From Gammaproteobacteria bacterium (GTDB lineage Bacteria; Pseudomonadota; Gammaproteobacteria; Chromatiales; Chromatiaceae): a stretch of 64,000 bases of DNA. Under the pieces are notes generated by a model. That model was not told the DNA's origin and did no database searches. It saw nothing but the letters and a program-made list of their open reading frames with translations. The translations under genes and the position numbers were made by a program. The stretch spans positions 1-64,000 of the forward strand of contig JAJRZI010000122.1 of the NCBI GenBank assembly GCA_024275295.1, given 5' to 3'. Positions 18,588 through 21,647 of this stretch are shown here, piece by piece. The stretch's first letter is position 1. The number at the start of each line of letters is the position of its first letter.

Positions 18588-19538
18588 TTAATCCAACTGA
18601 TCTGCAAACCAGTCAGATGCATCAACCAAGGCGCTTAAAATGCCTGGTTCCAAGGCTGAATGCCAGGCATCCGGAACAATCTTCAGTTCACTTTTAGGCC
18701 AGGCTTTGTGTAGCTCCCATGCCGACTCCATCGGGCAGATTGCATCATACCGACCTTGAATGATGACACCAGGAATATCCGCAATACGCCCAACATCCTC
18801 CAGCAGCTGATTAGCTCGCATAAAGGCATGGTTTATAAAATAGTGGCACTCAATACAGGCCACACTTAATGCCGTATGCGGTGACCCAAAATGCTTCACA
18901 ATTGATTTGTTCGCAACCAGGGAAGCCGTTCGCCCCTCCCAGATTGACCACGCCTTGGCTGCTGCCATGCGCGCCAGCTCATCACTGCCTGTCAAGCGGC
19001 TATGGTAGGCTTGCAGCAAATTACCCCGCTCATCCTCTGGAATAGGCGCGACAAAATCTTCCCAGTAATCAGGGAAGATGCGGCTGGCCCCTTGCTGATA
19101 AAACCACTGGATCTCATGTTCTCGGCAGAGAAAAATCCCTCTTAGAATAAGCCCCTGCACACGCTCTGGATGGCGCTCGGCATAGGCCAATGCCAGGGTA
19201 GACCCCCAAGAGCCACCGAAGAGCAACCAACGATCAACGCCAAGCATTGATCGGATGGCTTCAATATCACTGATCAGGTGCTCTGTTGTATTTTCAGTTA
19301 AATCGGCATGGGGTAAGGAGCGGCCGCAACCACGTTGATCAAACAGTATGATGCGATAGCGATAGGGATCAAAGAAACAGCGATGATAGGCTTCACAACC
19401 TGCCCCCGGGCCACCATGCAGAAACAGCACAGGAATACCGTCCGCAATCCCACTCTCTTCAACATAGAGATGATGCCCACTACCCACTTCAATGGTATGG
19501 GTGGCATAGGGTCGTATACTAGGATAGAGATCAGCCAT
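18588..19538 (-). CDS. pip: Proline iminopeptidase
   Basis: This alpha/beta-hydrolase releases N-terminal proline from peptides in the cytoplasm. The 316-residue protein shows the oxyanion region [27 protein letters not shown], and the nucleophile elbow GGSWGS, with the acid in the segment GRYDAICP and the histidine in AWHSALEPG. The length fits family S33 bacterial Pip. It is the first gene of a pip-dtd pair, and its promoter region faces the candidate small RNA. Confidence 0.95.
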
Positions 19539-19609: not shown

Positions 19610-19627
19610 TGTAGGAAATCCCCTACA
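19610..19627. promoter_or_regulatory. GacA/UvrY-type upstream activating palindrome
   Basis: The 18-base sequence TGTAGGAAATCCCCTACA is a symmetric pair of half-sites, TGTAGG-N6-CCTACA. The known GacA (UvrY, LetA) binding site upstream of rsmY, rsmZ and csrB genes is TGTAAG-N6-CTTACA, so each half differs at one matching position and the spacing is identical. It lies about 60-70 bases before the predicted start of a GGA-rich small RNA on the plus strand. Assignment rests on this combination. Confidence 0.65.
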
Positions 19628-19686
19628 AATCAAAGGGGGGAAACGACCTATTTTTCCCTTTTAAGCTGTGCGACTATCTTCTCCGG

Positions 19687-19818
19687 TCGCCAGTCAAGGA
19701 AGAACGAAAAGGATATTACTCACATCTAAGGAGAGAAGAGCCAAGGATGGAACCCCTTTGCCAACCAAGCCCGGCGGCCATGCCCCGGTAGTATGGAATA
19801 CTACCGGGGCTTCTTTTT
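19687..19818 (+). ncRNA. Candidate RsmY/RsmZ-type CsrA-sequestering small RNA
   Basis: About 130 bases between the activating palindrome and a strong terminator contain six GGA triplets in plus orientation: 19698, 19711, 19730, 19745, 19749 and 19795. Most have the AAGGA or ATGGA context bound by CsrA/RsmA. The last is exposed in the terminator loop. No ORF is present. RsmY and RsmZ of pseudomonads are of similar size, GGA-rich, end in a terminator and are switched on by GacA. A TATCTT at 19675-19680 could be the -10 box, giving the start used here; the 5' end is uncertain. It would act by titrating CsrA. The gene is antisense to neither pip nor typA. Confidence 0.7.
19783..19818 (+). terminator. 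Intrinsic terminator with GGA loop
   Basis: A perfect 12-bp stem, CCCCGGTAGTAT / ATACTACCGGGG, closes a three-base GGA loop and is followed by CTTCTTTTT. The T tract is on the plus strand only, so it ends a rightward transcript and not typA or pip, which run leftward. It is the main evidence that a plus-strand RNA is made here. Confidence 0.85.
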
Positions 19819-19826
19819 GATCCCTA

Positions 19827-21647
19827 TCAACTAGCAGTCGCTCTGGATGCCCGCTTGCGTTCATGCTCTTTCAGATGGCGCTTGCGGATACGGATTGCAG
19901 AGGGGGTAATCTCCACCAATTCATCATCCTCAATAAACTCCAGTGCCTGCTCCAGGGTGAATTTTATCGGCGGTGTGAGCAGAATATTCTCATCGGTTCC
20001 TGCCGCACGGATATTGGTCAGCTGTTTTCCCTTCAATGCATTGACCACCAGATCATTGGCTCGGGAGTGGATACCAATCACTTGGCCTTCGTAGATCTCC
20101 TCAGCATGCCCCAGAAACAGCTTGCCACGCTCCTGCAGGTTAAACAGCGAATAACCCAGCGCCTTGCCCGTCTCCTTCGCGATCATGGTGCCATTGACAC
20201 GGGCAGCAATACCGCCAGAAACAGCAGGCCCATAGTGATCAAAAACATGGTAGATCAACCCGGTACCTGAGGTCATGGTCAGAAAGTCTGTTTGAAATCC
20301 GATAAGCCCACGGGATGGAATAATATAGTCCAAACGGACACGCCCATTGCCATCCGGCACCATATCCTGCAGCTGGCCACGCCGGATACCCAACGCCTCC
20401 ATCAGGCCACCCTGATGGGCCTCCTCCACATCAACCGTCAGCTGCTCATAAGGCTCACACACCTCGCCATCCACTTCACGGAAAATAACCTCTGGACGAG
20501 ACACTGCAAGCTCATAGCCTTCACGGCGCATCGTCTCCAACAATATAGAAAGGTGCAGCTCTCCACGCCCGGAGACCCGGAATTTTTCCGGGTCAGTCCC
20601 CTCTTCCACACGTAGCGCAACATTGTGGATCAACTCCCGCTCCAGACGCTCCTTAAGCTGGCGTGAAGTGAGGTATTTACCCTCTTTGCCTGCAAAGGGT
20701 GAGGTATTGACCTGAAAGGTCATGGTGACGGTTGGCTCATCCACCGTCAGTGGCGGCAGCGGTTCCATGCAGGCCGGATCACAGAGGGTATCGGAGACAT
20801 TCAATCCTTCAATACCGGTAATCGCAATAATGTCACCCGCTGAAGCACTCTCAACCTCAACCCGCTCCAATCCAAGGAAGCCCATAACCTGCCCAATCTT
20901 GCCTTTGTGTGGATCACCATCAACCTTGTCCACCAGCACTTGCATATTGCTGCGCACACTGCCGCGCGCGATACGCCCAATACCGATAGCACCCACATAA
21001 CTGCTATAGCCCAGTGAGGAGATCTGCATCTGAAAAGGCCCATCGAGATCAACTTCCGGGGCAGGACAGTTTGCGACAAGCGCCTCAAACAGTGGCGTCA
21101 TATCCCCCGAACGTACGTCAGCAGAGTCTCCGGCATAGCCATTGATTGCTGAGGCATAAATGATGGGAAAATCCAGCTGCTCATCCGTCGCCCCCAGGCG
21201 ATCAAATAGATCAAATGTCTGATCAACCACCCAATCGGGCCGTGCACCATCCCGATCAATCTTATTAACAACTACAATAGGGCGCAGACCGTGCTGGAAC
21301 GCTTTTTGGGTAACAAAACGGGTCTGAGGCATTGGCCCCTCCACCGCATCAACCAGCAGCAGAACCGAATCAACCATTGAGAGTACCCGCTCAACTTCAC
21401 CACCAAAATCAGCATGCCCCGGCGTATCCACAATGTTGATACGGTAATCATTCCAGCGGATGGCGGTATTCTTGGAAAGAATGGTGATGCCACGCTCTTT
21501 TTCCAAATCATTTGAATCCATGACCCGCTCCACTGGGCCAAAACGGTCACCCAAGGTGCCAGACTGCTGTAACAGTTGATCGACCAAGGTGGTCTTGCCA
21601 TGGTCTACATGCGCGATGATCGCGACATTACGAAGTTGATTAATCAC
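19827..21647 (-). CDS. typA: Ribosome-associated GTPase TypA/BipA
   Basis: TypA (BipA) is a translational GTPase with EF-G-like domains that binds ribosomes and helps 50S assembly, growth at low temperature and stress responses. The 606-residue protein has G1 [11 protein letters not shown]3 [14 protein letters not shown] and G4 [15 protein letters not shown], then domains II, III, V and the BipA-specific C-terminal domain ending in basic residues. The start [18 protein letters not shown] is normal. It is monocistronic; the AT-rich spacer lies upstream and the small RNA lies downstream on the other strand. Confidence 0.98.

Follow-up and report, generated by a model that had tools for sequence, protein, structure and literature searches.

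A predicted CsrA-sponge small RNA gene with a GacA/UvrY-type box, and its family in an order of sulfur oxidisers and related bacteria

The 64,000-nt stretch of gammaproteobacterial DNA analysed here (the window) contains, between two minus-strand open reading frames, an inverted repeat, a series of GGA triplets and a terminator hairpin. Does this locus encode a regulatory RNA and, if so, of which kind? The ORF on one side (18588–19538) is divergent from the proposed RNA and encodes an alpha/beta hydrolase of the prolyl iminopeptidase type, which we take to be pip-like on the basis of an earlier note on this DNA and general knowledge; the other (19827–21647), convergent with the RNA, is typA, for a GTPase of the BipA type. 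The earlier note had proposed an unannotated RsmY/RsmZ-like small RNA with a GacA-type site. The results presented below indicate that a genuine small RNA gene almost certainly lies here, and we consider it highly probable that the locus is a stand-alone gene for a GacA-activated CsrA-sponge RNA of the Csr/Rsm type. These assignments draw on what can be read from the sequence: a box and its fixed spacing, motifs, covarying helices, conservation throughout the family, genes for a single CsrA and a GacA ortholog, and the tendency of RNA and GacA to occur together.

The predicted RNA gene is located at 19685–19815 on the plus strand (131 nt), with a predicted start placed to within about 3 nt and an end inside the T-run, up to about position 19818. 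A covariance model, R1, gave a full-length match at this position in the window genome (103 bits, E 3.8e-20); the window sequence was one of the 32 used to build the model, and independent conservation is shown by the other searches described below. All features of the R1 family, namely a closing helix, an ANGGA-rich core, a CCAACCAAGC tract and a terminator whose loop holds a GGA, are present in the window RNA. The next R1 matches in the same genome (17.6 and 15.9 bits) are at chance level, and no second copy was found there. A probable -10 element, TATCTT (19675–19680, plus strand), was assigned from where it lies with respect to the GTCGCC at which the conserved part starts, and TATA-type elements occur at that place in relatives. 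A promoter scan at the locus called no strong sigma-70 -35/-10 consensus pair; activator-dependent promoters often lack such a pair.

Conservation of the locus was apparent from searches of two kinds. A DNA search gave matches in 19 of 92 relatives, and the aligned relatives are all built alike: a palindromic box is followed after about 64 bp by GTCGCC, several ANGGA motifs, TTTGCCAACCAAGCCC, GGCGAC and a GGA-loop terminator, with four to nine GGAs per RNA. When the exact composite pattern was searched over 84,980 species genomes, 31 loci were obtained, where by estimate less than one match is expected by chance. The earlier note had named, as a finding that would speak against such an RNA, relatives conserving the terminator and not the GGA motifs and the palindrome. 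In relatives all three are conserved together, and the proposal therefore passes this test.

GGA triplets start at 19614 (within the box), 19639, 19698, 19711, 19730, 19745, 19749 and 19795. The six that the earlier note placed between box and terminator are indeed there, but the first of them (19639) precedes the predicted RNA start; the RNA itself also has a total of six, five in its body and one in the terminator loop. All six are ANGGA motifs, and the five in the body (19698–19751, plus strand) make up a predicted CsrA-binding region. Raw GGA triplets are weakly enriched in the RNA (6 versus 4.0 in dinucleotide shuffles, P=0.14), and GGAs in the CsrA-type context ANGGA strongly so (6 versus 1.16, P=0.0005). 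On both strands of the 64-kb window, the RNA locus is the only stretch with at least six ANGGA motifs per 130 nt. Summed over 32 relatives, ANGGA motifs number 153, where the shuffles give an expectation of 28 and a maximum of 44. Across relatives, 94 of 282 ANGGA sites are found in small loops closed by at least three pairs, versus 42 in shuffles; unlike this family-wide excess, the GGA hairpins within the ring of the window RNA are weakly defined. Several ANGGA motifs, some of them in loops, are a feature of CsrA/RsmA-titrating small RNAs that the window RNA shares.

The RNA is predicted to be closed by a helix in which GGUCGCC (19685–19691) pairs with GGCGGCC (19773–19779). Compensatory changes were found at four of the six modelled pairs in 61 sequences, and a double change from C-G to U-A can be read directly in 12 of them. 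Immediately downstream is the intrinsic terminator (19782–19818, plus strand), with a 13-bp stem and loop (19782–19810; loop AUGGAAU) followed by TTCTTTTT, in agreement with the earlier note. Its T-run is on the plus strand only, and there is no upstream plus-strand gene to use it. Of 61 relatives, 59 retain a GGA in this region although the stem varies and covaries. For the closing helix and terminator stem together, 97.6% of cells are paired versus 84.3% after shuffling, counts that come from the structure-fitted R1 alignment of 63 sequences and so somewhat favour the structure; the covariation score is 0.406 versus 0.152, and none of 500 shuffles reaches either the pairing or the score value. 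Covariation was abolished when the pairing partners were slid, with no slid version coming close.

Between the ANGGA motifs and the 3′ strand of the closing helix lies the tract UUUGCCAACCAAGCCC (19757–19772, plus strand), which is predicted to be mostly unpaired. This CCAACCAAGC tract hardly varies, either in the alignments or across the order, contains no GGA, and is the one element that the sponge model leaves unexplained. The RNA could have a dual function, acting as a CsrA sponge and, through the unpaired tract, pairing with mRNAs or binding a second protein. That few parts of the RNA are as well conserved as this tract despite its having no GGA, and that the known sponge mechanism has no need of it, fit such a role, which we regard as possible but rather doubtful, since the tract may serve merely folding, stability or decay. 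We know of no second-partner tract described for RsmX/Y/Z or CsrB/C.

What would control the RNA is suggested by the box upstream. The palindrome TGTAGG-N6-CCTACA reported in the earlier note is present exactly at 19610–19627 (plus strand) as TGTAGGAAATCCCCTACA, a perfect 6+6 inverted repeat with AAATCC between its arms and its centre 66 bp upstream of the predicted RNA start. UvrY binds an 18-nt inverted repeat upstream of csrB, and the published consensus is TGTAAGNNNNNNCTTACA (PMC4682653), from which the window box differs by one substitution in each arm. By itself the perfect box has no genome-wide significance: a loose version of the pattern occurs once more elsewhere in the genome, is equally frequent in a reversed control, and is expected about once by chance. 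The box gains significance because its placement is conserved in relatives. A version of it, TGTAGGAAAATTCCTACA or TTCAGANNNTTCCTACA, is found at -63 to -66 in 32 non-redundant relatives; the best 18-mer falls at these positions in 26 of them, and in the other six (L016, L021, L035, L039, L048 and L050), where the best 18-mer is off-position, a version such as CTTCAGATTATTCCTACA was recognised by eye at the same place. In a wider set (n=61) the majority of boxes are at -63/-64. The typA-adjacent copies or typA-side tandem array of genus g8 have the box at -85 or -86 in four of the five units examined (L109, L119 and three units of L137), and at -64 in L118. This shift of about 21 bp places the box about two helical turns further out, as an activator bound to one face of the DNA would allow. 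A GacA/UvrY-type box at a conserved upstream distance is what a GacA-activated small RNA of the CsrA/RsmA-titrating class would be predicted to have.

The positions of the neighbouring genes invite another reading, in which the palindrome is an operator of the divergent pip gene and the hairpin is the terminator of typA. Both genes have the orientation that this would need, and both are kept in some relatives: of 40 longer loci, 26 have typA convergent with the RNA at a distance of no more than 400 bp, L108 from another family among them, and some relatives keep pip next to the RNA. For L022, counted among the 26, the match covers just an internal part of typA and has the opposite orientation, so that the gene there is probably a different GTPase. 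However, the distance between box and RNA is kept in loci that have neither pip nor typA nearby (L018, L054, L057 and L059), the strand of the T-run argues against a typA terminator, and what lies between box and hairpin, the ANGGA motifs together with the closing helix, is conserved as well. We consider this reading very improbable. Still less credible is a small protein gene: the 130-base stretch that the earlier note had called ORF-free does contain a 14-codon ORF starting at 19747, with a start codon and a plausible Shine-Dalgarno sequence (AAGGAG) in the window and in three relatives of the same genus, but its ATG is missing in L008, also of that genus, and in most other relatives, indels among relatives are not multiples of three, and conservation tracks the RNA pairing.

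If the locus encodes a GacA-activated CsrA sponge, the genome should provide both partner proteins, and the earlier note had proposed checking for gacA and csrA. Both are encoded. CsrA is present in a single copy scoring above the equivalog cut-offs, and there is one clear GacA ortholog (297 bits versus a curated equivalog cut-off of 280 bits), whose gene lies in the order gacA-UDG-uvrC-pgsA; E. coli has the same gacA-uvrC-pgsA synteny. A genome search for a GacS/BarA kinase did not find the BarA sensor domain sCache_4 (PF09984); the genome has many hybrid kinases, several of them with receiver and HPt-like regions.

The occurrence of the RNA was compared with that of GacA, scored as NF007018 at E<=1e-60, across 210 genomes. 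The RNA is present in 109 of 130 genomes with GacA versus 7 of 80 without it, and among genomes at least 98% complete in 74 of 82 versus 0 of 48. Fisher values are about 1e-27 but are inflated by shared ancestry, and are not probabilities of independent events. From this presence with GacA and absence without it, it seems that lineages retain or lose the circuit as a whole. Some genomes with GacA have no detectable RNA, including G004 of the same genus (94% complete), for which incomplete assembly or divergence may be the cause. Seven near-complete genomes with GacA and without an R1 match (G011, G044, G201, G202, G203, G205 and G210) are candidates for a different, undescribed Csr small RNA.

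The R1 model matches 116 of the 210 genomes of the order, those of Sedimenticola and of tubeworm and Solemya symbionts among them, in 35 of 61 genera (the same 210 genomes make up the family-level and order-level sets), often with two and with up to five copies per genome. Outside the order it matched only two genomes in a class-wide sample (n=369); in one of the two, from another family, the RNA again adjoins typA. The loci found with the composite pattern include those of Sedimenticola, the Solemya velesiana symbiont, Ca. Sedimenticola endophacoides and Ca. Thiosymbion oneisti, together with symbionts of Escarpia and Lamellibrachia and Chromatiales or gammaproteobacterial MAGs. As judged from these matches, the predicted RNA family is common to many marine sulfur bacteria, both free-living ones and symbionts of animals.

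Several loci have unusual arrangements. Tandem arrays were found in genus g8 (L137, G184:C267:1350-2700), with three full copies and a fourth cut by the edge of the locus, and in L023/L014 (G041:C1), with two full copies and a degenerate third. L017 (G015:C85) holds an apparently lengthened copy with roughly double the number of GGAs, in which a CCAACCA segment is partly repeated between GTCGCC and GGCGAC. The typA-adjacent member from a different family, L108 (G457:C1:3305550-3305665), has only three GGAs and lacks one in the terminator loop; it is possibly a divergent or older form of the RNA.

Together these results are consistent with the following model. GacA, phosphorylated by a presumed upstream kinase, would bind the 18-bp box and so activate transcription about 65 bp downstream, where the promoter is placed. 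The resulting RNA of about 131 nt would begin at GGUCGCC and fold as a ring closed by GGUCGCC/GGCGGCC, presenting five ANGGA sites, with the sixth in the terminator loop. Several CsrA dimers would be captured at these sites and so removed from their target mRNAs, and GacA signalling would in this way relieve CsrA control. In this order of sulfur oxidisers and related bacteria, the RNA would then be the part of the Csr circuit that had been missing, its RNA arm. Some members of the order are symbionts of marine animals such as tubeworms and Solemya, and we believe that Ca. Thiodiazotropha belongs to it too. In the lucinid symbiont Ca. Thiodiazotropha endolucinida, csrA tops the listed transcripts, at about 78,000-85,000 TPM (PMC13137333). 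With the R1 model, the RNA can be looked for in genomes and RNA-seq data that already exist, and GacA/CsrA control of symbiosis therefore becomes testable.

How does this RNA relate to those already known? No Rfam family matched the window at its gathering threshold. Around the locus there were no matches to RsmY, PrrB_RsmZ (RF00166), CsrB or CsrC at E up to 10, nor did nine relatives give any at E up to 5, and the family is absent from Rfam 15. Matches to NsiR1, SdsR, P9 and sR53 at permissive thresholds were at chance level only, and the one sub-threshold hit of RF00166 elsewhere in the whole genome is an AAG-rich low-complexity coding stretch. The designation RsmY/RsmZ-like consequently holds for the predicted mode of action and not for family membership: by the Rfam covariance models the RNA is not RsmY, RsmX or PrrB_RsmZ. 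We found no description of this RNA family, or of a CsrA-antagonist RNA in the group, in the open-access literature. Kulkarni et al. 2006 (CSRNA_FIND) reportedly may have predicted related RNAs. The Chromatiales genera looked for in a machine-learning paper (PMC5568370) are not mentioned there.

The RNA resembles RsmX, RsmY and RsmZ of Pseudomonas in its similar length, several GGAs, palindromic GacA-type upstream sequence and terminator, and in often being present in more than one copy per genome; RsmA sequestration needs multiple GGAs (PMC2375449). It differs from them in the closing helix GUCGCC/GGCGAC, the invariant CCAACCAAGC tract and the frequent typA neighbourhood. With CsrB and CsrC of enterobacteria, which belong to the BarA/UvrY system, it shares the upstream 18-nt inverted repeat (PMC4682653) and CsrA sites with GGA in a loop (PMC7652899). 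The UvrY site of csrB, however, is centred near -182 (PMC4682653), whereas the box described here is at about -66, and CsrB, to which there is no Rfam match here, is longer (369 nt in its record) and has many more motifs. Pf1, Pf2 and Pf3 of Pseudoalteromonas, recently described as Csr small RNAs (PMC9927453, PMC11882849), are likewise from non-model marine Gammaproteobacteria. On sequence grounds, and as a member of none of the Rsm and Csr families of Rfam, we rate the predicted RNA as a new family of a known kind, that of RsmX/Y/Z and CsrB/C.
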